This document shows, in pieces, positions 10,701-36,222 of a DNA stretch of 43,801 nt; position 1 is the first letter of the stretch; every line of letters starts with the position of its first letter. Location of the stretch: the IMG/VR virus record IMGVR_UViG_3300045973_001282, positions 1 to 43,801 of that record. One strand, 5' to 3'. The notes below the pieces were generated by a model that was not told the origin of the DNA, made no database searches, and saw only the letters and a program-made list of their open reading frames with translations. The position numbers were made by a program, and so were the translations under genes. Source of the DNA: a virus.

Positions 10701-13700
10701 GCACGACGACTTGGCCAAGCTGGAGGCCTTCAAGGCGAAGCTGAAGGCAGCAGGTAGGGAAATGTGGTACAGGTTGGAGGACACGAAGGACGGCTCTATC
10801 CTGTCTGCGGACGGGCTCGAGTTGGCCGTTGGAGTGGGGAGGACCTGGGATGAAGCCGACGGAGCAGCCCTCGCAGCCGACAAGCAGGCCATCGACAAGC
10901 AGCTCGGTCCCGGCTGGGAAGAGCGTCGGATCGCTCGACGACTTCCTGGCGAAGGCGGAGGCGGAGAAGACCCCGCCCGGCCGCTACCGCCTGGTGGCGA
11001 TGGGTCGCGGCTCCCGGGTGACCTGGCAGGATCCGAGCTACTCGGCCCCGACCAGTCCCTCCCCGGCCTCGCCGCCGACCGAGCCGACGAAGTAAGGAGC
11101 CTCCTCGAGGAGCGGTCCCGCCTCCGCGCCGAGCTGGCGCAGGAGGCCACCTCCCTGGCGCAGCAGGAGGCCGCCCAGGCCGTCGACGCCGCCTACTGGG
11201 GCGAGGACGGGGGGCAGGGCCGCGGCGCGGCCGCCCGAGGGCTGCAGGAGGCCCCTGACCCCGGTGGCAGCGCGGTCGTCCCCCGCGCCGACCTCCAGGC
11301 CATCGCCGACGCCACCGGCACCCCCGTCGGGGAGCGGGGCGAGGTCAACGCCGGCGAGGTGCTGGCGGTGCTCGGCCAGACCCGCGACTGGCAGGGCTGG
11401 TTCGACCGCTTCTCGAAGAACGAGCTCGTCCAGAAGCACTACACGCCGGAGGCCCTCGAGGCCTTCCGGGTGGGCCTCGAGCGGACCGCCGCCATGTTCG
11501 GCGACTTCAGCCTGGTGCCGCCCGAGCTCGGCGAGAGCCCGATCCGGGGCAACTCCGACCCGCTCTTCAAGGTGACCTTCGACGTCACCACCATCTGCCC
11601 GCGCCAGGACGCCTACGTCTCGACGGTCTACAACGTCGAGCGGAAGCTGGGGCACCTGCTCAACCCCTACGAGCGGCACCTCGTCGGCATCATGCTGAAG
11701 GACGAGGGGATCATCCCCCCCTGCTGGTTCTGCTACGGGCAGGCCGGCCGCAACGCCTTCGACCTGGCCGTCGGGAAGGCGCTCACCATCGCCCGCGACT
11801 ACGTGGCGGTCCGCCAGGGCGTGAAGAAGCCGGCGGCCGGCGCGCTCGACGGCGTCTTCTTCAAGGCGGGCCAGTACGACTGGAACCCGAAGGCCTCCTG
11901 GCGCGGCTTCCTCGACGCCAACTGGAAGGCGCTGGCCGCGAAGGGCGGCATGGACGAGGTCCGCATCCGAGACATCATCCGCGGCGAGGCCACCGCCAAG
12001 GACGCCCACGAGCAGCAGCTGGCCGACGCCACCAGGGCGCTGGCGCAGTCGGTCTCCAAGGGCAACAAGCCGAAGGGCTTCGGCTCCCTCAAGGAGCAGC
12101 TCTTCCGCATCGCCGACGAGAAGATGCGGCGCTACAACGCCATCGCCGGGATCCGCATGAACAGCCAGACCGACTTCCGGCCCTGGCACTTCCTCGAGGT
12201 CTCCGAGTTCCTGGGCCAGCTGGCGGCCCGCTCCGGCCTGGCGCACGTCTACACCAAGGAGGCCGACTTCGTCCGGGCCTTCGGCGCCACCGGCGTGAAG
12301 TTCAACCTCTCCCTCTCCTACGCCACCGACAAGGCCGGGCGCATGGTGGTGGAGGCCGGCGGCCGGCCCGTCTTCGACTCGGTGCGCGGCATGGCCGGCG
12401 AGGACGCCACCGCCCTGCGCGCCCAGTACCCCCGCGACGTGGGCGGGATGCTGGTGGCCCTCAACGACGAGCAGCTGCTCGCCGGCCTGGTCGACGGGCG
12501 CGTCGACATGATGATCCCGTACCACGCCGGCACCGTGCCGGGCGCCGTGGACCGGGCCGAGGGCGCGCGCGACTACTCCAACTGGCAGCACGAGCACTGG
12601 CCGGAGGGGACGAAGAAGGGCGAGAAGATCACCGTCCGCCTCTCCAACGGGAAGAAGGTCACCGTCGAGGGGCTGCTGCCCATCACCAGGGCGCACCACT
12701 TCAACGACGCCAAGCTCTACCTCGAGCTCTGCGAGAAGTTGGGAGTCACTCCAAAGTTCGCCAACGTCCCGAGCTCGGCCGACCCGGCGCAGCTGCTGCC
12801 CCTCCTGAAGTGGGACGGCAAGGCCAAGACCGCCGAGGTCAACCCCGAGTACATGAAGCTCGTCCGCGACGTGGCGCGCGAGCCCAACAACCAGGTGGTG
12901 GTCGACCCACTGAAGATCGACTTCACCTTCGGCGGCTCCCTCATCGACAAGTGGCGCTCCGCCGGCGGCGACACCGCGGCGAAGGGCGACCCGGCGCTCA
13001 TCGACCGGGTGATGCAGCGGATCGAGATGCAGGACTGGCCGAAGGGCGTGGTCGACGCCGACGGCAAGGCGCTGGTCCAGCTCGGCGCGCGGCCGCGCGC
13101 GGACGGCGAGCCGGTCACCCGCCTCGAGGGCGCCCAGACCGTGCTGGCCCAGTCGGCCGAGCTCTTCGCCGGCAAGGACCAGGGCTACATCCTCTTCAGC
13201 CTGCCGGACGGGACGGGGGAGCCGCGCCGCTTCGAGATCCACCGGCTCCGGGGCGCCAACCGCTCCACCCTGGCGCACGAGACCGCCCACTTCATGCTCG
13301 AGGTGCTCTCCGACCTCGCCGGCGCGCCCAGCGCGGACCCCACGCTGCGCGCCCAGTACGACGGCCTGGTCAGCTGGATGGGCTACGCCTCCCACGACGA
13401 GCGGCTCGCCGCCGGCAAGGAGCGGGTGGCGCTCGGCGCCGCCGCGGCGCGCGACGCCGGCCAGGAGGCCCGCCTCAAGAAGCTCACCGCCAACGAGGAG
13501 CGCTTCGCCTACGGCTGGGAGCAGTGGCTGGCCGAGGGCAAGGCGCCGTCCAAGGAGCTCGAGGGCGTCTTCGCCCGCTTCTCCTCCTGGCTGCGCCGGA
13601 TCTACCGGGTCGCCGACGCCATCGGGGCCAAGTACGAGGCCAACTTCGGGGAGGCGCTCGGCCTCACCGACGACGTCCGCGGCATCTTCAAGCGGCTCCT

Positions 13701-16700
13701 CGCCACCGAGGACGCCATCGCCGCGGCCGACAAGGAGATGGAGGCCGGGTCCTTCACGCCGCTGCTCGACCGGATGACGCCGACCCGGCGGGCCGAGTAC
13801 GAAGCCCTCCGGGAGGAGGAGCGGCGCGAGAAGGAGGCGGAGCTCTTCCGCATGGCCTCCGAGTCCGACCTCTCCGAGGGGCGGAAGATGGTGGGCGAGG
13901 ACCGGGCGCGCCTGACCACCGAGGTCGAGGCCGAGCTCGAGAAGGAGCCGGTCTACCGCGCCATCGACTTCCTGCAGCGCGACCTCACCCCCGAGAGCTC
14001 GGTGGTGGACATCGCCACCGGCCGCCTCTCGGCCGACCTGGTCGACGAGCACGGCCGCCCCTGGAAGCTCGACCGCAAGGAGCTCGTCCAGGCCTACGGC
14101 GAGGACTACGTGAAGACCCTGCCCCGGGGCGCCCTGGCGCGCGAGGGCGGGGTGCCGGCGGACTTCATCGCCGAGCGGCTGGGCTTCGGCTCGGGCGACG
14201 AGATGCTCAAGGCGATCCAGACCGCCAAGGATCGGAAGGCCGTGCTGGCCGCCGAGGTCCAGGCCCGCCTCGAGGCGATCTACGGCAAGGCCCTCATCGA
14301 CGACCCGACCAAGCTGGCCGCGGCCGCGCTCGACGCCGCCCACTCGCCGGCGGACGCCCGGCGCATCCTCTTCGAGATCCAGGAGCTCGCCCGGGCGGTG
14401 AACGCCGAGGCGGCGCCCTCCAGCGTGGCCAGCCGGGAGACCCTGAAGGCGACCGCCGACCGCCTGGTCAACGCCGACCCGGCGCCCAGCGAGGCCCCGG
14501 CCGCCGACGCCTTCGTCAACAAGGGGACCACCGGCGACGCCCGGCGCCTCGACACCGAGCTCTACAAGGCCGCGGCCGCTCGCGCCGAGGACCTGTCCCT
14601 GCTCGAGCGCCAGCTCGCCGCCGCGCGCGACGCCGTCGACGCCCGGAAGGGCAAGGCGACCGCCGAGGAGGAGGCCCGGGTCAACGCCGCCTACGAGCGG
14701 CTCAAGGCCGCCCGGGACCGCCGGGACGCCTTCGCCCGGCTCCGCGGCATCACCGTCGAGCACGCCCGCGCCGCCGCGCGCGACCAGGTCAGCCGGCTCC
14801 TGGTGGGCGACCTCAACCCCAGCTACTACCTCGACGCCGAGAAGGCGGCGGCCCGCCGGGCCATCGAGGCGGCGGCCCAGGGCGACCTATCCCTGGCGGC
14901 CGACGAGAAGGAGACCCAGCTGCTCAACTGGGCGCTCTTCCGCGAGGCCTCCAAGGCGAAGGCCGAGGCGGAGACGATCACCGGGCGGCTGGCGCGGTTC
15001 ACCACCGACCGGGAGCGGGCCAAGCTGGGGAAGGCCGGGGGCGAGTACCTGCCCCGGGTCGACAGCCTGCTCGGCGCCTTCGAGCTCAAGACCTCGGTCA
15101 CCCCGGCGGAGATGAAGGGCCGGCAGTCGATGCTGGCCTGGCTCGAGGTGGAGCGGGCGGCCGGGCGCGAGCCGGTCATCCCGGACTCGATCCTCGAGAA
15201 GCTCGACCGCAGCGTCTCCTGGCGCGAGCTCACCATCGGCGACCTGCGCGACCTCTCCGACTCGGTGGAGAGCATCGTCCACCAGGCGAAGCTGAAGAAT
15301 ACCCTGATGACCTCGAAGGGCCGGCGCGAGCGCGCCGCGGCCAAGGCCGAGCTCATCAACGCCCTCACCGGCAACCTGCCGGTGCACGACATCATCGTCT
15401 CGAAGAACACGGTCCCCTACCTGCTCCAGAAGGCCCGTATCGGGAAGCGCCTCCGGGCCGGCCTCGTCAAGCCGGAGGAGCTGCTCCGCGAGATGGACGG
15501 CGGCCAGATCGACGGCCCCTGGTCCACCTACCTCTGGAACCCGGTCAACGACTCCACCTACGCCTGGCTCGATCTCGCCGACAAGACGGCGAAGCCGGTG
15601 CGGGACGCCATCCAGGCCCTGCCGAAGGAGGACATGAAGCGGCTGGTGAACACGCGCTTCAAGCTGGCCGGCCAGACCTGGACCATGGAGGAGGCCCTGG
15701 TCGTCGCCCTCAACTGGGGCAACGAGTCGAACGCCAAGAAGCTGCTCGAGGGTTGGAGCCAGAGCAACGTCTCCCGCTACCGCCTCGAGGGGTGGACGGC
15801 CGACACCGTGGAGGCCTTCCTCTCCAAGCTCAACCGCAAGGACTGGGAGCTCGTCCAGCAGGTCTGGGGCCAGCTCGAGACCCTGTGGCCCGAGATGGCC
15901 GCGCTCGAGAAGCGGCTCACCGGCCTCGAGCCGCCCCGCGTGAAGCCGCGCCCCTTCACCCGCCAGCTGGCGGACGGCACCACCATCGAGATGCAGGGCG
16001 GCTACTACCCCGTCTCCTACGACCCCCGCTTCAGCCGGCAGGGCGCCCGCCAGGAGGAGAAGACCAGCCTCCGCTCGGTGCAGCTCTTCGACCCCGGCTA
16101 CTACCGGGCCTCGACGCCTACCGGCCACCTGCAGGCCCGCATCGAGGAGTTCGCCCGGCCGCTGGCGCTGTCCCTCGACGCCCTGCCGAAGCACGTCACC
16201 GAGGCCTCCAAGGACATCGCCATGCGCGAGTCCCTGCTCTCGGTGCACGACATCCTCACCGACGGCGACGTGCGGGCGGCCATGCTGCAGACCATAGGCG
16301 AGGACGGGATCAAGGTCCTCGACGGCTGGCTGCGCGACAGCGCCAACGACCTGGTCATCCCCGACGGCGGCGCCGGCGCCATCATCAACTTCAGCAACAA
16401 GGCGCGGACCGGCTTCACCGGCATGGTCTTCAGCTTCAACGTCGCCCAGATGCTGCAGAACTTCGCCAACGCGGCGAACGCCTTCGACGCGGTGCCCGTG
16501 AAGTTCCTAGGCAGTGGCCTGGCGCGGCTCGCCAAGGACCGCAGCGCGGCGATCCAGGAGATGCACGACCTGTCCGCGACGATGAAGCAGCGGTCCACCT
16601 CCTTCGAGCGCGACATCGGCGACTCCCTGCGCGCGCTTCGCGGCCAGGAGGGCGTGCTCGCCCGGACCCGCGAGGTCGGCCTCTGGGGGATGCAGGTGGT

Positions 16701-17514
16701 CGACCAGGTCGTCGCCGTCCCGACCTTCTGGGGCGCCTTCGAGCACGCCATCGCGTCGAAGGAGGAGGGCGGCCTGGGGCTCTCGAAGGACCTGGCGGTG
16801 CGGCACGCCGAGCAGACGGTCCGGCTCCGTATGGGTAGCGGGCTCACCAAGGACCTCGCGGCGGTCATGCGCGACCCGCGCGCGAAGTTCCTCACCATGT
16901 TCATGGGCTTCGCCAACGGGCAGCTGAACCAGCTCTTCGCGGCGCACGCCGACGCCAGCCTGGCCTGGAGCCAGGGAGACCGCTACCGGGCGCTCCGCCG
17001 CCTCACCAAGACCTACTTCTGGGTCGCGCTCATGGGCACCGTGGCCTCCGAGCTCTTCACCGGCCGGTCGCCGAAGGAGGAGGACGAGGAGGGGAGGAAG
17101 CGCTGGGGGAAGTGGGCCGTGACGAAGGCCGCCATGGCCCCGGTGATGTGGGTCCCGCTGCTCGGCCAGGTCGCCAAGGCGGCCGAGTCCGGGCGGGACG
17201 CCAGCATCACCCCCTACGCCCAGCTCTTCACCACGACGGCGAAGGCCACCGCCGGCGCCTGGCGCATCGGCGAGAAGGCGCTCGACGAGGACCAGGAGGT
17301 GAGCGTCGAGGAGCTCACCAAGGCCGGACTCAACATCGTCGAGGCCGCCGCGACGTGGAACGGTCTGCCCGTGTCCCAGGCCAAGGCCACGGTGGGCTAC
17401 TGGAACGACCCGAACCGCAACGAGAGCGCCTCGGTGCCCGAGGACGTGATCGGGTCGCTGTACGGCAAGCAGCGCAAGGGCAGGCTCAACGAGGCCATCT
17501 TCGGACAGGAGTGA
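7708..17514 (+). CDS. Giant polyvalent ejection protein (gp16 position) with GGDEF-like, split-Cys and metallopeptidase-like domains
   Basis: This 3268-residue protein occupies the gp16 slot but is far larger than T7 gp16 (1318). Segments in order: a Pro/Ala linker (13-65) between two short repeats (YLGLFE, YMGLFE); a helical head; a Gly/Ala-rich hydrophobic stretch (252-300) that could enter membrane; a GGDEF-like domain (about 725-880: DPKTGLHND at 731, NDKHGHD at 766, GGDIM at 797); a second one (about 925-1050: SGDEF at 991-995); a domain with C1297, C1339 and C1342 (CPRQ...CWFC) and NSQTDFR at 1485; a HETAH motif at 1857-1861; long helices; and a C-terminal LPD38-like region (about 2880-3240). 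This composition fits the large polyvalent proteins described by Iyer and colleagues. No lytic transglycosylase domain was seen. It is probably injected into the host with the DNA. Confidence 0.85.
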   Translation: MAQPAYLGLFEPSATPPVPDPGATPTAPPAPSTPGDLGSTPAAPPAPASAAAPAPAAPPPAPPAPPAGYMGLFEAQAPEYDARQKRELEDLKAADIAWLAESQTIDPERQAEILKLSAATGMKASLVATNFDLVKRRLHAQQIDPGRVVATNPALAAMLADPELAPMVRDDVAKLDDLAWFFKVPGAALAGGMEQAHYQVDTLQKFSGLNTTANEADVEYLKKNHMARDYGARSWLGKAWQGLWFNLPTFPISIGGRVAGTAIGTAVGGGAGIETGPGAVVTAGAGAIAGEYAGGATVDFLQMVGPLYQQMLDLKDEQGNQLLSDDEARAYAFSGAATASAITGALDRRVARFIPGVDALLAKVAGVEVKKTLTKITLGEGIKTFSKETAKNVATGAAAVATMNAINAATMEAAQINHGTAQLDLAAAGRVGTAALEGLRQGFTDMALLSALHPALDFYKNVGWVRTSQENFAKITAMTDTVEGAKLRLRSPQLFEKYLGRLKQEGEGATHLFWAVDDFDKAAAEQKLEPRAIAAEIMGDGGSGYDQAKANGGDISVPIEQGLARLAQTKEGLALVARDARLDQKDLSGRQLEALQAKAKKLAELAPEAMSEPQRRILDDWKKRWEGKTSPDDAEATGRQLAAFYEVMAGYQKDRTTSWDLYERTTSKLTTHGPKDTAGAPPDAKVAYLQSAIGLVEQKLSAITPAAAARDLTEHYLKASPADQARIYYVDPKTGLHNDRALWDAPADPEKPLFAQVQISGKKAANDKHGHDTVDRTFRAVGKALLEAGGDHVAKVGGDIMFRVKDAAEAQAILKAARAKLPAWMELSVGVGQRGESLRATVDGINAGHGSLVEAARKAGTFAGREAMPATFQALGKSKGKKAYGTALAALSPDQAQVQLSPELQAAHAQLDPRTAAEKAYRTEGGLLTAAGWAARRAEGVAKKHVASADLRKIARLNGVFGTEATDRILLDLEAMVRDAGGAEFDAAHLSGDEFSFQHDDLAKLEAFKAKLKAAGREMWYRLEDTKDGSILSADGLELAVGVGRTWDEADGAALAADKQAIDKQLGPGWEERRIARRLPGEGGGGEDPARPLPPGGDGSRLPGDLAGSELLGPDQSLPGLAADRADEVRSLLEERSRLRAELAQEATSLAQQEAAQAVDAAYWGEDGGQGRGAAARGLQEAPDPGGSAVVPRADLQAIADATGTPVGERGEVNAGEVLAVLGQTRDWQGWFDRFSKNELVQKHYTPEALEAFRVGLERTAAMFGDFSLVPPELGESPIRGNSDPLFKVTFDVTTICPRQDAYVSTVYNVERKLGHLLNPYERHLVGIMLKDEGIIPPCWFCYGQAGRNAFDLAVGKALTIARDYVAVRQGVKKPAAGALDGVFFKAGQYDWNPKASWRGFLDANWKALAAKGGMDEVRIRDIIRGEATAKDAHEQQLADATRALAQSVSKGNKPKGFGSLKEQLFRIADEKMRRYNAIAGIRMNSQTDFRPWHFLEVSEFLGQLAARSGLAHVYTKEADFVRAFGATGVKFNLSLSYATDKAGRMVVEAGGRPVFDSVRGMAGEDATALRAQYPRDVGGMLVALNDEQLLAGLVDGRVDMMIPYHAGTVPGAVDRAEGARDYSNWQHEHWPEGTKKGEKITVRLSNGKKVTVEGLLPITRAHHFNDAKLYLELCEKLGVTPKFANVPSSADPAQLLPLLKWDGKAKTAEVNPEYMKLVRDVAREPNNQVVVDPLKIDFTFGGSLIDKWRSAGGDTAAKGDPALIDRVMQRIEMQDWPKGVVDADGKALVQLGARPRADGEPVTRLEGAQTVLAQSAELFAGKDQGYILFSLPDGTGEPRRFEIHRLRGANRSTLAHETAHFMLEVLSDLAGAPSADPTLRAQYDGLVSWMGYASHDERLAAGKERVALGAAAARDAGQEARLKKLTANEERFAYGWEQWLAEGKAPSKELEGVFARFSSWLRRIYRVADAIGAKYEANFGEALGLTDDVRGIFKRLLATEDAIAAADKEMEAGSFTPLLDRMTPTRRAEYEALREEERREKEAELFRMASESDLSEGRKMVGEDRARLTTEVEAELEKEPVYRAIDFLQRDLTPESSVVDIATGRLSADLVDEHGRPWKLDRKELVQAYGEDYVKTLPRGALAREGGVPADFIAERLGFGSGDEMLKAIQTAKDRKAVLAAEVQARLEAIYGKALIDDPTKLAAAALDAAHSPADARRILFEIQELARAVNAEAAPSSVASRETLKATADRLVNADPAPSEAPAADAFVNKGTTGDARRLDTELYKAAAARAEDLSLLERQLAAARDAVDARKGKATAEEEARVNAAYERLKAARDRRDAFARLRGITVEHARAAARDQVSRLLVGDLNPSYYLDAEKAAARRAIEAAAQGDLSLAADEKETQLLNWALFREASKAKAEAETITGRLARFTTDRERAKLGKAGGEYLPRVDSLLGAFELKTSVTPAEMKGRQSMLAWLEVERAAGREPVIPDSILEKLDRSVSWRELTIGDLRDLSDSVESIVHQAKLKNTLMTSKGRRERAAAKAELINALTGNLPVHDIIVSKNTVPYLLQKARIGKRLRAGLVKPEELLREMDGGQIDGPWSTYLWNPVNDSTYAWLDLADKTAKPVRDAIQALPKEDMKRLVNTRFKLAGQTWTMEEALVVALNWGNESNAKKLLEGWSQSNVSRYRLEGWTADTVEAFLSKLNRKDWELVQQVWGQLETLWPEMAALEKRLTGLEPPRVKPRPFTRQLADGTTIEMQGGYYPVSYDPRFSRQGARQEEKTSLRSVQLFDPGYYRASTPTGHLQARIEEFARPLALSLDALPKHVTEASKDIAMRESLLSVHDILTDGDVRAAMLQTIGEDGIKVLDGWLRDSANDLVIPDGGAGAIINFSNKARTGFTGMVFSFNVAQMLQNFANAANAFDAVPVKFLGSGLARLAKDRSAAIQEMHDLSATMKQRSTSFERDIGDSLRALRGQEGVLARTREVGLWGMQVVDQVVAVPTFWGAFEHAIASKEEGGLGLSKDLAVRHAEQTVRLRMGSGLTKDLAAVMRDPRAKFLTMFMGFANGQLNQLFAAHADASLAWSQGDRYRALRRLTKTYFWVALMGTVASELFTGRSPKEEDEEGRKRWGKWAVTKAAMAPVMWVPLLGQVAKAAESGRDASITPYAQLFTTTAKATAGAWRIGEKALDEDQEVSVEELTKAGLNIVEAAATWNGLPVSQAKATVGYWNDPNRNESASVPEDVIGSLYGKQRKGRLNEAIFGQE
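10850..11095 (+). CDS. Overlapping small ORF inside the giant gene, +1 frame
   Basis: This 81-residue ORF starts at an ATG preceded by GGGGAGGACCTGGG, a good ribosome site, and ends with TAA. It is in the +1 frame relative to the giant gene. By eye nearly all its third codon positions are G or C, while the giant frame over the same bases loses that bias. The giant frame here encodes a Gly/Pro-rich linker just after the second GGDEF-like domain. The small protein has a Pro/Ser/Thr-rich N-terminus, a central SLDDFLAKAEAEKTPPGRYR segment and a Pro-rich tail. I do not recognise it. A frameshifted version of the giant protein is the alternative explanation. Confidence 0.45.
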   Translation: MKPTEQPSQPTSRPSTSSSVPAGKSVGSLDDFLAKAEAEKTPPGRYRLVAMGRGSRVTWQDPSYSAPTSPSPASPPTEPTK

Positions 17515-25760: not shown

Positions 25761-25802
25761 GGCCCGGATTCGCGCACTTAGCGGATCCGGGCCTTCTTCT
25801 TT
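25761..25802 (+). terminator. Intrinsic terminator overlapping the integrase 3' end
   Basis: A perfect 9-bp stem (25761-25769 with 25785-25793) and a 15-base loop are followed by TTCTTCTTT. On the + strand it would stop late transcripts before they run antisense through the integrase. Because it follows the tRNA 3' end by six bases, it may also have come from the host tRNA terminator. The integrase stop codon (25778-25780) lies in its loop. Confidence 0.7.
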
Positions 25803-27154
25803 CCGCCGACCACTGAATCCTGCAGTCGCCCTGCAGTCGTTTCCGAGGGAAGAGGCGCTGCCGGCTGCACTTGGACTTCCGGCTTGACCGCCGCTCGCGC
25901 GGCTTGCGGACCCGTTGCGCCACTCGGAGAGGCTGACGGGTCAAGCCGCCGCTCCGTAGCCGGGAAGGCTACCAGCATCCCCTGTCGCAGGTCCTCGAGC
26001 TCGAGGTGCCCGTAGGTGTCGGCGGTCAGCCGGCTGTCGCTGTGCCGGAGCCCCTGCTGCGCCACCGCCAGGCCGGCCGCGCGCACCAGCTGCGTCCCGA
26101 AGCTGTGCCGGGTGTCGTGGAAGCGGACGTGCCGCGGCACCGCCTTGGCCCAGGTGGTCAGGTGGTGGCACTTCGGGCACTCCGCCGGCACGGCCTTCGA
26201 CGGGCGGCGCTCCTTCCAGCCGCAGCGCCAGGCCCGGCAGCGCCACTCCCACCCGGTGACCAGGCCGGCCGCCGCCACCGCGCGCCGCAGGACCTTGCCC
26301 AGGCGCAGGCTGGTCGGGTGCATGGTCCCGTCGGCCTGGGGGAAGACGAGCTCGCCCCGGCTCTTCAGCGCCTCCTCGAGGTAGGGCACCAGCGCGGCCG
26401 CCACCGGCACCGGCAGCGCCTTGGCGTCCTTCGTCCTCGCCGCGTCCCAGCTCCGCCAGACCATGATGACGCCGGCCACCAGGTCGACATCGCGCTTCAG
26501 CAGCCCGAAGACCTCGCCCTCGCGCAGGCCGGCGAAGAGCGCCACCGCCACCGGCCCCTTCCACGGGTCGTCGACCAGGTCGATGACCGGCTGCATCTCG
26601 TGGGGCTGGAGGATGTAGCGGGGGACCTTCGGCACCTTGATCGGGGGCACGTCCTCGATGGGGTTGGTGCGGCCGTGCCACGGCCCGCCCGGCCGCCGCG
26701 CGAGCTCGAAGATCCCGAAGAGGTAGCCGCGGAGGTGCTTCCGGCTCTTCGGCGAGAGCTGCTCGGCCTTCTCCTCGAGGAGCCGGCTCACCCGGCTGGC
26801 GGTGATGAAGCCGAGCGGCTGGTCGAGCAGTTCCTTCAGGTGCTTCTCGAGGAAGGGCTTGATGTCGGGGCTCTTCAGCATCGAGCCCCGGGCCTTCCAC
26901 CACCAGGTCAGCAGCCAGGCCAGGTCGTGCTTCAGGACGGCGCTGGAGATCGAGGCCAGGCCGGCGCGCTGGCGGTCCACCTCGAGCTCGTGCTCGGCGA
27001 GCCGCCGGCGGCCGTCGCGCTCCAGGGTCCGGCGGGCGAGCGGCGCGCCGTCGAGCGACCTGGAGCGGACGGTCTCCTGCTTTAGCTTGCCCAGGGCGTC
27101 GTACCACTGCACCACCAGGCGGCGGCCGTCCTCCCTCCAGAGCAGAGACCCCAT
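25778..27154 (-). CDS. int: Tyrosine integrase with zinc-ribbon-like insert
   Basis: This 458-residue site-specific recombinase should insert the phage at the tRNA-Pro site. Catalytic residues are visible: Arg211 (AGLREGE), His346-x-x-Arg349 (HDTRHS), the LRHSD His near 372, and the nucleophile Tyr381 (ADTYGHL). The N-terminal about 180 residues form the arm-binding and SAM-like core-binding parts. An insert just before the HxxR box holds C306, C311, C326 and C329, spaced like a zinc ribbon. A Pro/Ala-rich tail of about 70 residues ends in KKKARIR, encoded next to the att core. The right arm-site pair lies inside this tail's coding DNA. Confidence 0.93.
   Translation of the reverse strand: MGSLLWREDGRRLVVQWYDALGKLKQETVRSRSLDGAPLARRTLERDGRRRLAEHELEVDRQRAGLASISSAVLKHDLAWLLTWWWKARGSMLKSPDIKPFLEKHLKELLDQPLGFITASRVSRLLEEKAEQLSPKSRKHLRGYLFGIFELARRPGGPWHGRTNPIEDVPPIKVPKVPRYILQPHEMQPVIDLVDDPWKGPVAVALFAGLREGEVFGLLKRDVDLVAGVIMVWRSWDAARTKDAKALPVPVAAALVPYLEEALKSRGELVFPQADGTMHPTSLRLGKVLRRAVAAAGLVTGWEWRCRAWRCGWKERRPSKAVPAECPKCHHLTTWAKAVPRHVRFHDTRHSFGTQLVRAAGLAVAQQGLRHSDSRLTADTYGHLELEDLRQGMLVAFPATERRLDPSASPSGATGPQAARAAVKPEVQVQPAAPLPSETTAGRLQDSVVGGKKKARIR
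25820..25838 (+). repeat. Right arm-type integrase site pair (P' arm), inside int
   Basis: This is the second copy of the 19-base CTGCAGTCGYYCTGCAGTC element, 65 bases beyond the CCA of the core and inside the integrase C-terminal coding region. It has the same orientation and internal spacing as 25564-25582, so integrase binding here could also affect int transcription. Confidence 0.65.
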
Positions 27155-30024: not shown

Positions 30025-30208
30025 GCGCCACCGCCTTCCTGACGCGCAGCGCGATCTCCTCCGAGACCTGCTGGTAGCTCTCGGCCGCGGAGGCCAGGTC
30101 CTGGGCCATGATGATGGGGTCGCCGCCCTGGTCGAGCGCCACCATGGCTCGGCGCCGGCACTCCTCGGCGCCGTTCAGCAGGGCCGCCTCGATCTTGTTG
30201 AGCTTCAC
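30017..30208 (-). CDS. Small helical early protein
   Basis: This 63-residue protein uses a GTG start that overlaps the nuclease gene stop, and its own end overlaps the next gene by 8 bases. The sequence is amphipathic helix (KIEAALLNGAEECRRRAM, DLASAAESYQQVSEEIALRVRKAV). Similar-sized helical proteins often accompany phage recombination genes. Function unknown. Confidence 0.6.
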   Translation of the reverse strand: MKLNKIEAALLNGAEECRRRAMVALDQGGDPIIMAQDLASAAESYQQVSEEIALRVRKAVARG

Positions 30209-31443
30209 GCGGCCTCCTTCGAGCCGCTCTTCTTCGGGGTGAAGGCCTTCACCGTGCCGCCCTTGATGACCCGGAGCAGGCCGCGCTCCTTGAGCAGCTC
30301 GTCGGCCATGTCGTTGAACCGCTTGAGGTCGCCGCGCTTGATGTCGGCGCCCAGGTACTTCTTGGTGGCGCGCTCGATGCCGGAGAAGGTGACGTCGACG
30401 CTGGCGGCCTCGTCCGCGGCCGGGCCGAAGATGGACTCCAGCGCCTTCACAGCCGCCTTGCCGTCGACGATCTCCCGGGTCTCGCTGTCGGGGTTCACGC
30501 CGTAGACCCGGCCGTCGGGGAGCGGGATCGGGGTCTGCCGGGCGAAGTCGCGGAGCGCGTCCTTCACGGCGTCCAGGATCTTGTCGGCCTGGGAGACGAG
30601 CTCGCGGAGCCGAGGCGCGTTCTCGATGTCGATGAGCGCCACGCCCTGCTTCACCAGGTCGAGGATCTCCTGGCTGTCCTGGCCGATGGTGGCCCGGGCG
30701 AGCGCCATCTTGGCCGGGCAGTAGCGGAGGCTGGGGCAGTAGCGGCAGTGGTCGCCCACCTCGGCGTCTGGGATCTCGCCCCGGGCGAAGGCGGCCCGGT
30801 CGTCGTGGATTCGGTGGCCCAGCTCGACGAGCCGGTCCTCGAAGGTGTCGAGCTCGAAGGCGCCGACGGTAGCCGTGGAGTGGTAGGGCTCGCCGTCGAT
30901 GACCCGGATGATCTCGAGCTCCGCCTGGTTGCGCCCGTGGATGCGGCAGGCGCAGAGCGCCGCGGCGAGCAGCTGCTCGTCCTGGGCGGCCGGCCGGCGC
31001 CGCGCCCTGCCCTTGAAGTCACCGATGTAGACGGACCGCTCACCGGCGAGGCCCAGGCGGTCGGTGGTTCCGACGAACTCGGTGGGGCGGGCGCTGGAGT
31101 AGTCGCGGTCGAGGCCGCGGCCGAGTTCGCGCGCCTGGCCGGTGGCGGCGTCGAAGGCCATGGCCACCTCGGGGGCCACGTTGGCCATCTGCAGGTTGTC
31201 GAGAGGGATCATGGCCAGGACCTCGCGGTCCTCCTCGGAGGCCTCGGACAGGGCCAGGTCGCGCGCCTCGTCGACGGTCTTCCCGGTCTGGCTGATCTCC
31301 GAGACCCGCTGGAAGAACAGGTGGCGGGTGGTCCCCTCCTGGGCGAAGGCGCTGGTGGAGTCGACGCGCGGGAGGACGCAGGAGAGCCTGCAGGCGAAGG
31401 CGCGGGGGAGGGAGCTGAAGGTGGGCAAGGTCATGGTGGTCAC
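30205..31443 (-). CDS. PD-(D/E)XK nuclease, Cas4/RecB-like, with an iron-sulphur-type Cys cluster
   Basis: This 412-residue nuclease starts at a GTG overlapping the RecT-like gene stop. Near the N-terminus is an EGTTRH motif typical of RecB-type exonucleases. The catalytic core shows Asp128 (GTTDRLG) and Asp142-x-Lys144 (YIGDFKG). A C-terminal cluster, C233-x2-C236-x5-C242, may with an N-terminal Cys hold a 4Fe-4S centre as in Cas4 and AddB. The C-terminal about 120 residues (IERATKKYLGA, KPKK-type end) look like a separate DNA- or partner-binding part. Paired with the annealing protein next to it, it would resect phage DNA ends for recombination. Confidence 0.82.
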   Translation of the reverse strand: MTTMTLPTFSSLPRAFACRLSCVLPRVDSTSAFAQEGTTRHLFFQRVSEISQTGKTVDEARDLALSEASEEDREVLAMIPLDNLQMANVAPEVAMAFDAATGQARELGRGLDRDYSSARPTEFVGTTDRLGLAGERSVYIGDFKGRARRRPAAQDEQLLAAALCACRIHGRNQAELEIIRVIDGEPYHSTATVGAFELDTFEDRLVELGHRIHDDRAAFARGEIPDAEVGDHCRYCPSLRYCPAKMALARATIGQDSQEILDLVKQGVALIDIENAPRLRELVSQADKILDAVKDALRDFARQTPIPLPDGRVYGVNPDSETREIVDGKAAVKALESIFGPAADEAASVDVTFSGIERATKKYLGADIKRGDLKRFNDMADELLKERGLLRVIKGGTVKAFTPKKSGSKEAA

Positions 31444-32381
31444 CGGGTGGAGGCGGAGTAGAGGTCGGCGCCGGCCTTCTGCAGGTCCTTCGGCAGGCGG
31501 TTGATGGCGGCGCGGGCGCCGGCGCGCTGCCCGGCGGAGAGGAGGGTGCGGATCTCGACGAGCTCGGCCGGCTCACCGTCCATGGCCACGGGGTCGAAGC
31601 CGGGCTCGAGGGTGCGGTCGTGCGGCGCCACCTCGACGTGGACGGCGTCGACCACCTGGTGGGCGGCGGGCGCCGGCGCGGCGGCCGGGGGCGGCGGGGC
31701 GACGAGTCGCGGCGCCTCCACCTCCTGGCGCTGGTCCTCGAGCTGGTCATCGCTCGGGAGGCCCAGGGTGCCCTCCGGGTAGAACTGCTGCGCCCAGTAG
31801 CTGGCGGAGCGGTAGACGAACATCTGGTCGGGCATCGTCTGCCACTTCGAGTACTCCCCGCCGGAGCGGCCCTGCTTCGACCACCAGCCCTCGCCCTTGG
31901 CCATCTTCACGGTGATCCAGGTGCCCTGGCAGACCACCCGGTCGGAGAGGCGGGTGGCGACGCAGCGGACGCCGTACTCGTCCTGGTAGGGCTCGCCCTT
32001 CTTCTCCCAGGTGAGCGCGCTGAACTTCCCGCTCTTGTTGATGAGGGCGATGAAGAACTTGCCGAGCCAGCCCGGCTTCCCGTCCACCACGCTGATGTTC
32101 TGCATGACCATCATCGGCGGGAGGTCGAGGCGGGTGGCGAGCTCGACGGCGACGAGGCAGTTGCTCCAGCCCTCGGTGCCGGGCCGGCCGCGGAAGGTCT
32201 GGGGGACCACGCTCGAGGCGGCGAGCGCAGAGACCAGGCGCTGGATGGCCTCGAAGCCCTGGACCGTCTCGAAGCCCATCTTGATGAGGACGTTGCGCTG
32301 CTGGCGCTTCGGCTTCGCCAGGGCGGTGACCGGCGGCGCGGCCGGGGCGGTGTCGGTGGTGGAGGCGGCGGCGGTGGTCAT
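31440..32381 (-). CDS. RecT-like single-strand annealing protein
   Basis: This 313-residue protein starts with an ATG overlapping the small upstream gene's stop. The core (about 40-210) shows the order seen in phage RecT-type proteins: an early helix, CLVAVELATRLDLPPMMVMQNISVVDGKPGWLGKFFIALI, a middle strand set, and MPDQMFVYRSASYWAQQFYPEGTLG. The C-terminus is Pro/Ala-rich with a small helical end that may be a partner-binding tail. Immediately downstream is the PD-(D/E)XK nuclease, the usual exonuclease/annealing pair. Pattern recognition supports the call; a profile search would settle the exact RecT subfamily. Confidence 0.75.
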   Translation of the reverse strand: MTTAAASTTDTAPAAPPVTALAKPKRQQRNVLIKMGFETVQGFEAIQRLVSALAASSVVPQTFRGRPGTEGWSNCLVAVELATRLDLPPMMVMQNISVVDGKPGWLGKFFIALINKSGKFSALTWEKKGEPYQDEYGVRCVATRLSDRVVCQGTWITVKMAKGEGWWSKQGRSGGEYSKWQTMPDQMFVYRSASYWAQQFYPEGTLGLPSDDQLEDQRQEVEAPRLVAPPPPAAAPAPAAHQVVDAVHVEVAPHDRTLEPGFDPVAMDGEPAELVEIRTLLSAGQRAGARAAINRLPKDLQKAGADLYSASTR

Positions 32382-32587
32382 CGGGCGATCCTCTGGTCCA
32401 GCTGGTGGGTGGTGGCGATGTCGTCGTGGGTGTCGGCCAGGTCGAGCTCGAGGCAGAGGGCGCTGCAGTGGTCGCCCTCGTGCGCGACCTCGGCGCCGCA
32501 GCCGCCGGCGCAGAGGTAGTCGGGCTCGTTGGCCTCCTGCTCGTGGATGCAGGTGCGCCAGGGGTTGGGCTCGGCGACGCGGGCCAT
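32378..32587 (-). CDS. Small zinc-binding early protein
   Basis: This 69-residue protein has a C/H set in its middle: C-x-H at 13-15, a CAGGC pair, then His-Glu-Gly-Asp-His-Cys and CLE. It probably binds zinc. The C-terminus is acidic. ATGA overlap with the RecT-like gene. Function unknown. Confidence 0.6.
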   Translation of the reverse strand: MARVAEPNPWRTCIHEQEANEPDYLCAGGCGAEVAHEGDHCSALCLELDLADTHDDIATTHQLDQRIAR

Positions 32588-32589
32588 GG

Positions 32590-32871
32590 TCAGGCGACCT
32601 CCGCCAGCGTCGCGCCGAGGAGCCGGGCGGCCCGGGCACGGGTGGCCTCGAAGAAGCCGTCGGCGTGCGCCATGACCCGCTCGACGCTGGAGTGGCAGAG
32701 GCAGACCGAGTGGTGGCCGGTCGGCCCGCGGAAGTGGATGCGGACCTGGTGGCCGGGACCAACCTCCGCCTCGACGCTCACCGTCACGCCGGACGGGGCC
32801 GCCTTGGTGAGGTCCTCCGCCAGCACCTTCGCCTCCCGCCACGCCAGCTTCTCGTCACCCGTCGTCGCCAT
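32590..32871 (-). CDS. First gene of the leftward early operon, unknown function
   Basis: This 93-residue protein is the first coding region after the leftward promoter-operator. GGGGAG about 10 bases upstream of the ATG is the ribosome site. It has a helix, then two or three beta strands (VTVSVEAEVGPGHQVRIHF, HHSVCLC) and a C-terminal helix. The fold might be a small alpha/beta domain. The first early gene of a phage is often an anti-host or regulatory protein, which is a hypothesis only. Confidence 0.6.
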   Translation of the reverse strand: MATTGDEKLAWREAKVLAEDLTKAAPSGVTVSVEAEVGPGHQVRIHFRGPTGHHSVCLCHSSVERVMAHADGFFEATRARAARLLGATLAEVA

Positions 32872-32909: not shown

Positions 32910-32943
32910 TTGGAAGCCTATTCCAAGTAGAATTGGAACGCAA
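32910..32943 (-). promoter_or_regulatory. Leftward early promoter-operator (PL)
   Basis: On the minus strand this reads TTGCGTTCCAAT-N5-TTGGAATAGG-C-TTCCAA. TTGCGT (-35-like) and TAGGCT (-10-like) are 17 bases apart. They are covered by two overlapping dyads: TTCCAA-N6-TTGGAA, and the 17-base TTGGAA-N5-TTCCAA. It lies 39 bases from the first gene of the recombination operon. The same 34-base arrangement occurs at 33867-33900 with 28 of 34 bases identical. Confidence 0.75.
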
Positions 32944-32965
32944 CTCCAACGGAAGGAAACTCCAA
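32933..32965. promoter_or_regulatory. Two weaker extra operator sites
   Basis: TTGGAA-N5-CTCCAA (32933-32949, one mismatch to the 17-base dyad) overlaps the leftward promoter's -35 side. A partial site ending CTCCAA at 32960-32965 is next to it. Together with the main dyad they would make a graded three-site operator. Confidence 0.5.
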
Positions 32966-32993
32966 TCCGCCCGACATGACGTGGGGTTGCGGA

Positions 32994-33224
32994 CTACCGG
33001 GCTGAGCGCAGGGCGCGCTGGAGGTGCTCGTCCAGCAGCTGCAGGAAGCCCAGGGAGGCCTCCGGGTCGGGGCCGCTCAGCGCGCCGGCCGCGAGGCTGA
33101 GCGTGCGCTGGAGCTGCTCCAGGTGCTGCGGGAGCACGGCGCGGAGGTGCTGCCTGGACGCTTCGACCGCGGATTCAGGCGTCGCCTCGAGGGCGGCGGC
33201 CGCGGACCCAGGAAGGCGGGCCAT
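32994..33224 (-). CDS. Small helical protein at the end of the putative lysogeny operon
   Basis: This 76-residue ORF is Ala/Leu/Gln-rich and helical (LRAVLPQHLEQLQRTLSLAAG, FLQLLDEHLQRALRSAR). It is the last ORF before the leftward promoter and is on the same strand as the HTH and membrane protein genes upstream, with 40 bases between it and the membrane protein gene. Codon bias is normal. A real gene is likely but not certain; function unknown. Confidence 0.5.
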   Translation of the reverse strand: MARLPGSAAAALEATPESAVEASRQHLRAVLPQHLEQLQRTLSLAAGALSGPDPEASLGFLQLLDEHLQRALRSAR

Positions 33225-33264
33225 GCGTTCAGTGGTAGCACGCCCGACGGACAGCCGGCGATGC

Positions 33265-33549
33265 CTACAAGGAGGGCTTCTTCATCCTCCACAGGATCAC
33301 TGGGAAAATCGGCAGGCAGGGGACCAGAGCGGAGCCAGCGACGAGGGCGGAGGCGGGCCGGCCGAGGCTCGCTCGAGCGGCGCGCCAGCCCAGGAAGACG
33401 GCCAGCGCCACCAGCAGCGCCGTGGCAGCGGCGAAGGGGCCGGCGATGGTGCGGCCTTCGCCGAAGCCGGCGCCGAGGAAGTAGGCGCCCATCGCCAGGC
33501 ACCAGGCGAGGGCAGCTCCGCGCCGCTGGCGCTGCCAGGCCGGCGTCAT
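33265..33549 (-). CDS. Small membrane protein, possible superinfection exclusion
   Basis: This 94-residue protein has three hydrophobic spans (about residues 11-29, 36-55 and 65-85) and basic ends. The ATG overlaps the HTH gene stop (ATGA), so the two are co-translated. A membrane protein made with the repressor-side HTH gene is a common arrangement for superinfection exclusion (compare the lambda cI-rex operon), but there is no sequence similarity to Rex that I can see. Confidence 0.6.
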   Translation of the reverse strand: MTPAWQRQRRGAALAWCLAMGAYFLGAGFGEGRTIAGPFAAATALLVALAVFLGWRAARASLGRPASALVAGSALVPCLPIFPVILWRMKKPSL

Positions 33550-33815
33550 CGCTTGCCCCCGAGCTCGCGGTCGAGCACCAGGCCGGCGCTCCACTCGATG
33601 AACGGCCAGCCGCTGGGCGCCTTGAAGGACTCGGCGATGCGCCCGATCTCCTCGACCTTGAACGGCGTGGTGCCGTCCGCCTTCTTGTACCAGCTCCACT
33701 CCGAGAAGCCGGCCACGTCCGCCGCGGCCGCCACCGTCACCTCGAGCTCCTTCCGCTTGGCCTCGATCCGGTCGGCGATGAGCTGGTCGGGGTAGCGACT
33801 CTTGGTGGGCGGCAT
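33546..33815 (-). CDS. Helix-turn-helix regulator of the minus-strand (lysogeny) operon
   Basis: This 89-residue protein has a helix set compatible with a lambda-repressor-type HTH (RIEAKRKELEVTVAAAADVAGFSEWSWYKKADGTTPFKVEEIGRIAESF). Its C-terminus (WPFIEWSAGLVLDREL) is too short for a cleavable repressor domain. The ATG lies 3 bases from a 17-base operator-like dyad (33818-33834), so its mRNA could be leaderless. It faces away from the other HTH gene at 33903, giving a cI/cro-like divergent pair. Which of the two is the lysogenic repressor cannot be decided from sequence. Confidence 0.65.
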   Translation of the reverse strand: MPPTKSRYPDQLIADRIEAKRKELEVTVAAAADVAGFSEWSWYKKADGTTPFKVEEIGRIAESFKAPSGWPFIEWSAGLVLDRELGGKR

Positions 33816-33817
33816 GG

Positions 33818-33834
33818 CTGGAATACTAATCCAA
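33818..33834. promoter_or_regulatory. Operator at the minus-strand HTH gene start
   Basis: On the minus strand this reads TTGGAT-TAGTA-TTCCAG, two mismatches from the TTGGAA-N5-TTCCAA dyad. It ends 2 bases before the ATG at 33815. TAGTAT inside it resembles a -10 box, which would place the transcript start at or next to the ATG. Confidence 0.55.
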
Positions 33835-33866
33835 TCGCTGGCTTACGTGGTGAACCGCGCCTGTCG

Positions 33867-33900
33867 TTGCGTTCCAATGAGGATTGGAATAGGTTTCCAA
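33867..33900 (+). promoter_or_regulatory. Rightward early promoter-operator (PR)
   Basis: This reads TTGCGTTCCAAT-N5-TTGGAATAGG-T-TTCCAA, the same element as the leftward promoter, differing only in the 5-base spacer and one base of the -10 region. TTGCGT and TAGGTT are 17 bases apart. The element ends 2 bases before the ATG at 33903, so transcription would begin about at the start codon. A repressor bound here would block both promoter and start. Confidence 0.75.
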
Positions 33901-33902
33901 GT

Positions 33903-34142
33903 ATGCGGACCGGAACCGAGAAGGGCCTGGGCGACGTCATCAGAAGCAGGCGCACCGCCCGGAAGATGACGCTGGCGCAGCTGGGCGAGGCGGCCGAGAT
34001 CGACGTGAGCCAGCTCTCGAAGGTCGAGCGCGGGCTCTGCCGGACTTCGGTGGAGACCTACGACCGGATCGCCGTGGCGCTCGGCTGGACGCCGGCGCTC
34101 TTCTGGCAGCACGCCACTAGGTCTCCGCGGTCCGCCGCCTGA
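33903..34142 (+). CDS. XRE-family helix-turn-helix regulator (cro- or repressor-like)
   Basis: This 79-residue protein has a standard XRE domain (about residues 8-62): LGDVIRSRRTARKMTLAQLGEAAEIDVSQLSKVERGLCRTSVETYDRIAVALG. It is the first gene of the rightward early operon and its ATG abuts the operator, so it should control its own synthesis. No ribosome site is visible and a leaderless mRNA is likely. It has no dimerisation or cleavage domain, as expected for Cro-type proteins, but it could equally be the main repressor. The cognate site is most simply the TTGGAA-N5-TTCCAA dyad. Confidence 0.8.
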   Translation: MRTGTEKGLGDVIRSRRTARKMTLAQLGEAAEIDVSQLSKVERGLCRTSVETYDRIAVALGWTPALFWQHATRSPRSAA

Positions 34143-34143
34143 C

Positions 34144-34479
34144 ATGAGCCCCTCCGCTCCCGCCCACGCCGCCGCTGCCCGCCCACTGGAAGTATCGGCA
34201 CATCCAGTGAAGCCCGAGAAGGGCCATCCCGGGGCGGCGCCTTCGGGCGGGGTCGCCTCTCCGGGTCAGCTCGAGACCCTGCGGCTCATCGCCGCGCACC
34301 TGAAGCTCAACGGCTACCCGCCCACGGTGCGTGAGCTCGTCGCCGACCTGGGCATCCGCTCCACCAACGACGTGGCCGAGCGGCTGCGCGCCCTCGTGAA
34401 GAAGGGCCTCATCCGCCGCGGCGCCCGTTCGGCGCGCGCCATCGCCATCACCGACCTCGGGCAGGCCGCGCTCCGGTGA
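34144..34479 (+). CDS. LexA-type DNA-binding domain protein without peptidase domain
   Basis: This 111-residue protein has an unstructured Pro/Ala-rich N-terminal 40 residues, then a LexA N-terminal domain (about 41-105): QLETLRLIAAHLKLNGYPPTVRELVADLGIRSTNDVAERLRALVKKGLIRR. The Ser/Lys self-cleaving half of LexA is missing. It may read or compete for host SOS boxes, or regulate phage genes downstream. The ATG comes one base after the XRE gene stop. Function beyond DNA binding is inference. Confidence 0.7.
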   Translation: MSPSAPAHAAAARPLEVSAHPVKPEKGHPGAAPSGGVASPGQLETLRLIAAHLKLNGYPPTVRELVADLGIRSTNDVAERLRALVKKGLIRRGARSARAIAITDLGQAALR

Positions 34480-34937: not shown

Positions 34938-35455
34938 TGGCTGGGTACATGGCGCGAGCCGCGAAGGCGGACTGGCGCACGCCGACGGAGGTGGTGGAGC
35001 TGCTGCACGTGCTGTGGGAGGGCGGGCCGGACCTCGACCCGTGCGCCTCCCACGAGGCAACGCGCGACGAGCTGCTCGGCCGGCGAGAGAACATCTTCCT
35101 CGAGGCAGGCCCGGGCATCGACCCGAACCACCTCGACGGGCTGAAGCAGCCCTGGACCGGCCGCGTCTACGTGAACCCGCCCTTCGGCGAGCTCGCCGAG
35201 TGGATGGCCAAGGCGGTGGCGGAGCACGAGCTGCACGGCGCCGAGGTGGTGGTCCTGCTGCCGTCGCGCACCGACACCCGCTACTGGCACGACCTGGTGG
35301 CCAAGGCCGACGCCGTCTGCTTCTGGCGCGGCCGCATGACCTTCGTCGGCGCGCCGGCCGCGGCGCCCTTCCCGACGGCGCTCGTCTACTTCGGCCCGCG
35401 CCCATGGGACTTCCAGCGGGTCTTCACGTCGAAGGGGATGGTGGTCTGCCCATGA
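34937..35455 (+). CDS. Phage DNA N6-adenine methyltransferase (Dam-type)
   Basis: This 172-residue enzyme matches the phage Dam family: an ADWRTPTEVVELLHVL start (residues 11-26), DLDPCAS at 32-38, and the catalytic NPPF motif at 80-83. Later come VVVLLPSRTDTRYWHDLV and CFWRGRMTFVGAP, which also fit. It should methylate adenines in phage DNA, possibly to protect it or to time replication. No restriction partner is nearby. It is coupled by overlap to the genes before and after it. Length is normal. Confidence 0.88.
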   Translation: MAGYMARAAKADWRTPTEVVELLHVLWEGGPDLDPCASHEATRDELLGRRENIFLEAGPGIDPNHLDGLKQPWTGRVYVNPPFGELAEWMAKAVAEHELHGAEVVVLLPSRTDTRYWHDLVAKADAVCFWRGRMTFVGAPAAAPFPTALVYFGPRPWDFQRVFTSKGMVVCP

Positions 35456-36222
35456 GCGGTCTCCCGTGGATCAAGGTCTGGACCGCCATCGGGAACCACC
35501 CGAAGGTCCAGCGGCTCGAGAAGGAGCTCGGGGTGCGCGACGCCCTGGGCATCGTCATCCGCCTGTGGTGCTGGACGGCGGACTACTGCCCCGGCGGCGA
35601 CATCCCGGCCGGCGACGGCGACGCCGCGGCGCGGGCGGCCCGCGGGGACGCCTGTCGGAAGACGCCGAAGGTGATGCTGCAGGCGCTCGTCACGGCTGGC
35701 CTCATCGACAAGACCCCGCTCGGCTTCCGGGTCCACGACTGGGACGAGATGCAGGTCCGGCACGTCGAGGAGGAGGAGAAGCGGCGGGAGCAGGCCCGGG
35801 ATCGGAAGGCCCGGCAGCGCGCCCGGGAGACCGTGACAGTCACGCGTGACGTCACGCGTGACATGGGTGACGAGTCACGCGAAGTCACGCGACAGATAAG
35901 AGAAGATCAAGACAAGACAGAGACTCCTACCGTTCTTCCCATGCCCGCTCGCAGGCGGGCGGGCGAGGCAGGGAAGCTGGGACCTCTGGCAGCTGACCTT
36001 CGGAAGGCCGTCGAGCAGGGGGTCAGTCACGGGCTCATCCCGCTCGCCACCCAGCCCGAGGCCGACGAGCTCGAGCAGCTCATCGAGCGCTTCGGCGGCG
36101 TCGACGAGGCGGTGGCCTTCGTGGCCGCCACCGTCCGCAAGCGCGACACCGACCCCCAGAGCATGGCCTGGCTGCTGACCGTCCTTCGCCCTTCGGCCGA
36201 GCAGGGAGCCAGGCCCCAGTGA
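35452..36222 (+). CDS. Replication initiation-type protein, lambda O-like position
   Basis: This 256-residue protein begins with the phage replisome organiser-like segment (WIKVWTAIGNHPKVQRLEKELGVRDALGIVIRLWCWTADYC), a winged-helix shape at residues about 5-100. A charged, repetitive linker (about 125-150) follows, then a helical C-terminus (MAWLLTVLRP end) of the sort that recruits helicase or primase. The linker DNA carries a block of GTCACGCG repeats followed by an A-rich stretch, as in genes whose product binds an origin inside its own coding region. No helicase gene lies downstream, so host DnaB would be used. Both ends overlap neighbours (ATGA, GTGA). Confidence 0.7.
   Translation: MSGLPWIKVWTAIGNHPKVQRLEKELGVRDALGIVIRLWCWTADYCPGGDIPAGDGDAAARAARGDACRKTPKVMLQALVTAGLIDKTPLGFRVHDWDEMQVRHVEEEEKRREQARDRKARQRARETVTVTRDVTRDMGDESREVTRQIREDQDKTETPTVLPMPARRRAGEAGKLGPLAADLRKAVEQGVSHGLIPLATQPEADELEQLIERFGGVDEAVAFVAATVRKRDTDPQSMAWLLTVLRPSAEQGARPQ
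35839..35918 (+). other. Candidate replication origin (iterons plus A-rich stretch) inside the replication gene
   Basis: Two perfect 12-base palindromes, GTCACGCGTGAC, lie back to back at 35839-35862. Two more GTCACGCGA copies start at 35874 and 35884. A purine-rich stretch with far lower GC than the genome follows directly (35892-35918, AGATAAGAGAAGATCAAGAC type). Repeats followed by an easily melted region are the standard form of an iteron origin. Confidence 0.6.

Follow-up and report, generated by a model that had tools for sequence, protein, structure and literature searches.

A putative immunity control region with a 17-bp candidate operator at three predicted promoters of a high-GC short-tailed phage

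Divergent early operons that are headed by the same short element raise the question of which sequence unit is recognized there, and by which protein. In the viral DNA considered here (one virus record of 43,801 bases, hereafter the window), a 34-bp element precedes both a leftward recombination operon and a rightward operon with regulator and replication genes. A preliminary description had interpreted each copy as two overlapping dyads, together forming an operator new to phages through which one repressor would silence both operons.

The paired 34-bp elements and their gene neighborhood

The pattern TTGCGTTCCAAT-N5-TTGGAATAGG-Y-TTCCAA has two mismatch-free matches in the window, at 32910-32943 (minus strand) and 33867-33900 (plus strand); none occurred in 100 shuffles and none is expected by chance. 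These putative promoter-operators, PL/OL on the left and PR/OR on the right, are identical at 28 of their 34 positions, and the exact pattern match bears out the preliminary description of two such elements, one before each early operon. The two overlapping dyads described there are literally present in both copies as TTCCAA-N6-TTGGAA and TTGGAA-N5-TTCCAA, with perfect 6-base arms throughout (extended to 7 bases in the first dyad at PR), and so is the pair of hexamers TTGCGT and TAGGYT, 17 bases apart. In the right copy these are found at 33867-33872 and 33890-33895 (TAGGTT), and in the left copy at the same places, as a putative -35 TTGCGT (32938-32943, minus strand) that matches the consensus poorly and a putative -10 TAGGCT (32915-32920, minus strand). 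The G+C content falls from 71% for the window to 43-48% in the stretches around the elements, which include some of the least G+C-rich 50-mers of the window, as expected of promoters.

That 28 of 34 bases agree despite different downstream gene sets could mean that an early promoter was recently duplicated or exchanged by recombination, with palindromes of little import. We consider this highly improbable, since the identity between the copies ends at the element edges and breaks in the 5-base spacer while the palindrome arms are kept, and since separate, less similar copies of a palindrome start at 32933 and 33818.

The leftward operon begins with a gene of no assigned family (32590-32871, minus strand, 93 aa), whose ATG is preceded by the ribosome site GGGGAG, and continues with a RecT-like single-stranded DNA annealing protein (31440-32588, minus strand; phrog_561, E 3e-43) and an exonuclease (30205-31443, minus strand; phrog_69, E 2e-16). 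Between the 34-mers lie three leftward genes, of which the first (33546-33815, minus strand) encodes an 89-aa helix-turn-helix (HTH) regulator, a putative CI-like repressor (phrog_2328 transcriptional repressor, E 5e-5). The second (33265-33549, minus strand), which overlaps the end of the regulator gene, encodes a 94-aa protein with apparent hydrophobic segments and no family, and is placed like an exclusion or conversion gene (the rex position of lambda) on the presumed prophage transcript. The third (32994-33224, minus strand), a 76-aa protein of unassigned function, would be carried on the same presumed transcript of the leftward regulator.

Rightward, a 79-aa HTH regulator, putatively Cro-like (33903-34142, plus strand; HTH_31, E 1.5e-10), is followed directly by a 111-aa protein (34144-34479, plus strand; PF01726, E 3.7e-17) that consists of the LexA-type DNA-binding domain only, lacks the peptidase part and is possibly an additional regulator. 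The replication initiation protein is encoded at 35014-36222 (plus strand; phrog_9474, E 1e-19). Inside the initiator gene, a cluster of GTCACGCG/CGCGTGAC repeats (35838-35930), composed of two perfect 12-bp palindromes back to back and then AGTCACGCGA twice, runs straight into a stretch whose G+C content (46%) is among the lowest in the phage; its sequence has the appearance of an iteron origin embedded in the initiator gene, comparable to that of lambda gene O.

An integrase gene (25778-27154) suggests that the phage is probably temperate, and its portal, terminase, tail and protease genes are those of a short-tailed (podovirus-type) phage. Nearly a quarter of the record is taken up by an open reading frame for 3268 aa (7708-17514) that matches phrog_9880; the tRNA-Ala reported by ARAGORN on the opposite strand within it (14397-14488, minus strand) is probably a false positive.

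The operator unit

Both dyads were scanned as separate patterns over the 43.8-kb window, with simulated sequence as the expectation. The divergent dyad TTCCAA-N6-TTGGAA has just two copies, both inside the 34-mers. The convergent dyad TTGGAA-N5-TTCCAA, allowing at most two mismatches, has four sites, starting at 32910 (no mismatch), 32933 (one), 33818 (two) and 33884 (none), where a mean of 0.15 would be expected per window, and all four fall within the control region of about 1 kb, at three putative promoters.

At the left promoter, the site OL-c (32910-32926, minus strand; TTGGAATAGGCTTCCAA, 12 of 12 arm bases) lies over the -10 hexamer and OL-b (32933-32949, minus strand; TTGGAGTTGCGTTCCAA, 11 of 12), 23 bp upstream of it, over the -35 hexamer. 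A weak possible site, OL-a (32949-32965, minus strand; TTGGAGTTTCCTTCCGT, 9 of 12), is uncertain by itself, as 2.3 sites of its quality are expected per window. At the right promoter, OR-c (33884-33900, plus strand; TTGGAATAGGTTTCCAA, 12 of 12) covers the -10 hexamer, and a possible upstream site over the -35, OR-b (33861-33877, plus strand; CTGTCGTTGCGTTCCAA, 8 of 12), has a good right half only; the start-to-start spacing is again 23 bp. The remaining site, OM (33818-33834, minus strand; TTGGATTAGTATTCCAG, 10 of 12), covers the putative -10 hexamer in front of the leftward regulator gene. OM, the full OL-b and the weak OL-a had been overlooked in the preliminary description.

These additional sites bear on what the operator is. 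In the left cluster, the first dyad follows from the right half of one 17-mer and the left half of the next, 23 bp apart, and the half-site that is predicted by this tandem reading alone fits at 5 of 6 bases, for which the chance is about 0.005 given the local base composition. At OM, the convergent dyad stands alone, with only one of six bases matching at the position of the first-dyad partner. The corresponding half-site at PR is CTGTCG, which matches at 2 of 6 bases, and there the palindrome of the first dyad is accordingly better than that of the tandem site. As operator unit, a single convergent 17-mer, TTGGAA-N5-TTCCAA, is thus the best-supported candidate, rather than an overlapping double dyad: the tandem reading is well supported at PL and a single-site reading is supported at OM, while the tandem arrangement is less clear in the right cluster, where the upstream site has one good half. 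That the 17-mer recurs at a third promoter without the first dyad also weakens the claim of a novel dual-dyad operator.

It could still be that the 34-mer is a composite operator in which three alternating half-sites (TTCCAA, TTGGAA, TTCCAA) form two overlapping dyads and give a two-state promoter, either because one dimer occupies one dyad at a time or because each dyad is read by a different regulator. Both dyads are indeed perfect in both copies, the recognition helices of the two HTH proteins differ (as judged by eye), and the tandem reading has to accept a poor upstream half-site at PR. An HTH dimer, however, usually recognizes half-sites in one orientation and at one spacing, and the lone convergent dyad at the third promoter and the tandem-specific half-site at PL count against the composite as well, so that we think it unlikely. 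The specific form in which the dyads have a half-site in common and are bound in mutual exclusion, each by a different HTH protein, seems quite unlikely; if it were true, the balance between the regulators would be read by one 29-bp stretch present at either early promoter.

The suggestion that the operator might also control integrase or late genes was rejected, as the best site upstream of their starts has 6-7 mismatches.

Relatives add little to the case for the 17-mer. A motif search for the 34-bp element in related phages, as proposed in the preliminary description, found no relative carrying it, in collection scans that may leave out records very near the window. The triple-half-site pattern had two matches in IMG/VR, both in coding open reading frames of lower-GC phages and judged to be chance, and TTGGAATAGGYTTCCAA occurred in 30 contigs, every one of which had a lower GC (0.30 to 0.53) and no second strong copy nearby, which we likewise attribute to chance. 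The portal and terminase relatives L008 and L041 (83% and 91% identical) are fragments that end short of the control region. When the two regulators, RecT and the replication initiation protein served as queries, no relative that shares the locus was revealed, and the control region had no match in the phage collection; it also had none in 396 genomes from the phylum of an actinobacterium locus, a result of little weight. Since the near relatives are fragments, the operator unit stands on this one record and not on comparison.

Promoter register, regulators and the proposed switch

In all three promoters a TAGNNT hexamer occupies positions 7-12 of the 17-mer: TAGGCT at PL, TAGGTT at PR and TAGTAT at the putative promoter of the leftward regulator gene, PM (33823-33828, minus strand). 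The interiors of the stacked sites (TTGCG and TAGGY) are kept between PL and PR while the 5 bases between them differ, which fits -35 and -10 boxes lying under the operators. At both PR and PM the ATG begins exactly 7 nt after the hexamer, so leaderless messages are predicted for both regulators, with the rightward HTH gene probably leaderless; in the leftward operon, by contrast, about 35 nt of leader precede the first gene and include its ribosome site. Each hexamer shares only about 3 of 6 bases with the sigma-70 consensus, a poor match, and a promoter scan reported no promoters, for which reason we put forward promoter activity, like the leaderless transcripts at PR and PM, as a prediction. 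Phage PY54, whose cI and cro mRNAs are described as leaderless, offers a precedent (PMC4488713).

Weak hexamers would also suit an activated promoter, and the elements could be an activator box resembling those used by restriction-modification controllers, with the 79-aa protein activating from the upstream site and repressing from the downstream site, at its own leaderless gene as well as at the leftward operon. The size of this HTH protein, an operator just before its own start and the probable leaderless start are in keeping with such a controller, and C.Esp1396I provides a precedent of two adjacent operator sites (PMC4041747). We nevertheless regard activation of this kind as very unlikely: the proteins scanned in the neighborhood of the locus included none from a restriction-modification system; the -35 and -10 hexamers are straddled by the sites, which do not lie upstream of them, and this makes repression the simpler outcome; and the third site precedes the second HTH gene, as in phage switches.

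For a repressor, the same operator over the same promoter register suggests that the leftward recombination and rightward replication operons are probably under joint control by one DNA-binding protein, and the gene content is in line with this (RecT and exonuclease on the left; the HTH protein, the LexA-like HTH protein and the replication initiator on the right). To this extent the single repressor of the preliminary description gains from the shared operator, the promoter register and the gene content, while the assignment of the actual binder is an inference. By position and by its best matches, the 89-aa leftward protein is the likelier lysogenic repressor and the 79-aa rightward protein the likelier Cro. 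The best tblastn matches of the leftward protein, to phage CI/repressor proteins, are weak (E 0.009 to 2), as is its HTH assignment (Pfam HTH_31 below the cut-off). Apart from the HTH, no C-terminal dimerization or self-cleavage domain was found in it, which leaves lambda-like cooperative binding and SOS induction unsupported. The roles could also be swapped, as the HTH relatives of the 79-aa protein in two phage contigs (L005, 38%; L006, 33%) run on, in a reading of the DNA by eye, into a longer CI-type protein. Each of these contigs carries several TGCGC/GCGCA inverted repeats between divergent HTH genes (2938-3010 in both L005 and L006), apparently another multi-site switch.

Taken together, the region likely serves a temperate, short-tailed phage of high G+C content as its immunity (lysis-lysogeny) control region, with the 17-bp operator over the -10 hexamers of three promoters. 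The 17-mer would lie over the -10 of PL (recombination), PR (regulator and replication) and PM (leftward regulator gene). A second copy, 23 bp upstream and over the -35, would accompany it at PL, where it is complete, and at PR, where one of its halves is degenerate. The prophage would express a small HTH repressor from PM, most likely the protein encoded at 33546-33815, which would bind the tandem sites as dimers and block RNA polymerase at PL and PR, keeping recombination and replication genes silent. At higher repressor levels the weaker site at PM would be bound as well, so that the repressor would limit its own synthesis. Once the phage infects or the prophage is induced, the Cro-like 79-aa protein expressed from PR would probably take the same sites and shut off PM.

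Such a switch would be compact, at about 1 kb, and would use two HTH proteins of very small size, with no C-terminal domain visible on the repressor, in a high-GC podovirus-type phage that has no close described relative. If correct, this reading tells which genes the prophage should keep silent and gives a defined operator for studies of immunity groups; the general understanding of phage switches is unchanged by this region alone.

Comparison with known systems

The present phage is distantly similar to Bordetella phage BPP-1 and its short-tailed kin: the portal protein shows 37.6% identity across 87% of the length, and the tail genes are of podovirus type. The DNA of the control region has no match in any phage record. 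In C.Esp1396I, two adjacent operator sites, OL and OR, span 35 bp in all before the gene (PMC4041747), and may be compared with the present stretch of about 35 bp before a short HTH gene, in which one full palindromic site adjoins one half site. C.Esp1396I differs in belonging to a restriction-modification system in which dimers occupy two separate sites, and its activation finds no support here. The immB regions of N15, PY54 and phiKO2 have a lambda-like gene order and a 16-bp palindromic operator before the repressor gene (PMC4488713). The leaderless cI and cro messages of PY54 parallel those predicted here, but PY54 Cro binds a single site, the only operator found there (PMC4488713), and these telomere phages are of a different type.

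The closest parallel in layout is lambda, whose annotated operators (NC_001416) are 17 bp long, are spaced 24 and 20 bp apart in OL and 23 and 24 bp in OR, and flank leftward rexB-rexA-cI and rightward cro. Both phages have 17-bp palindromic operators, which start about two helical turns apart (20-24 bp in lambda; 23 bp here, with both sites good at PL and one half degenerate at PR). Both also have operators clustered at a pair of divergent early promoters, a leftward regulator gene between the clusters, and a site before that gene (here 33818-33834). In both, the genes to the left serve recombination and those to the right regulation and replication, and the leftward HTH gene between the clusters diverges from a Cro-type HTH gene, with the roles here assigned by inference. 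Unlike in lambda, the clusters are about 1 kb rather than 2.4 kb apart, the operator sequence differs, and the 89-aa regulator lacks the C-terminal dimerization and self-cleavage domain. Nor are there three operators per cluster: the left has two strong sites and one weak, and the right one strong site and a half, with a separate site 66 bp away. The likeness thus concerns layout and logic, and we do not claim membership of the lambdoid immunity family. Two divergent early promoters overlaid by 17-bp operators at a spacing of 20-24 bp are what lambda has, and the novelty proposed for a dual-dyad operator is not well supported; most likely, the operator sequence is new and the kind of switch is ordinary, arranged much as in lambda.
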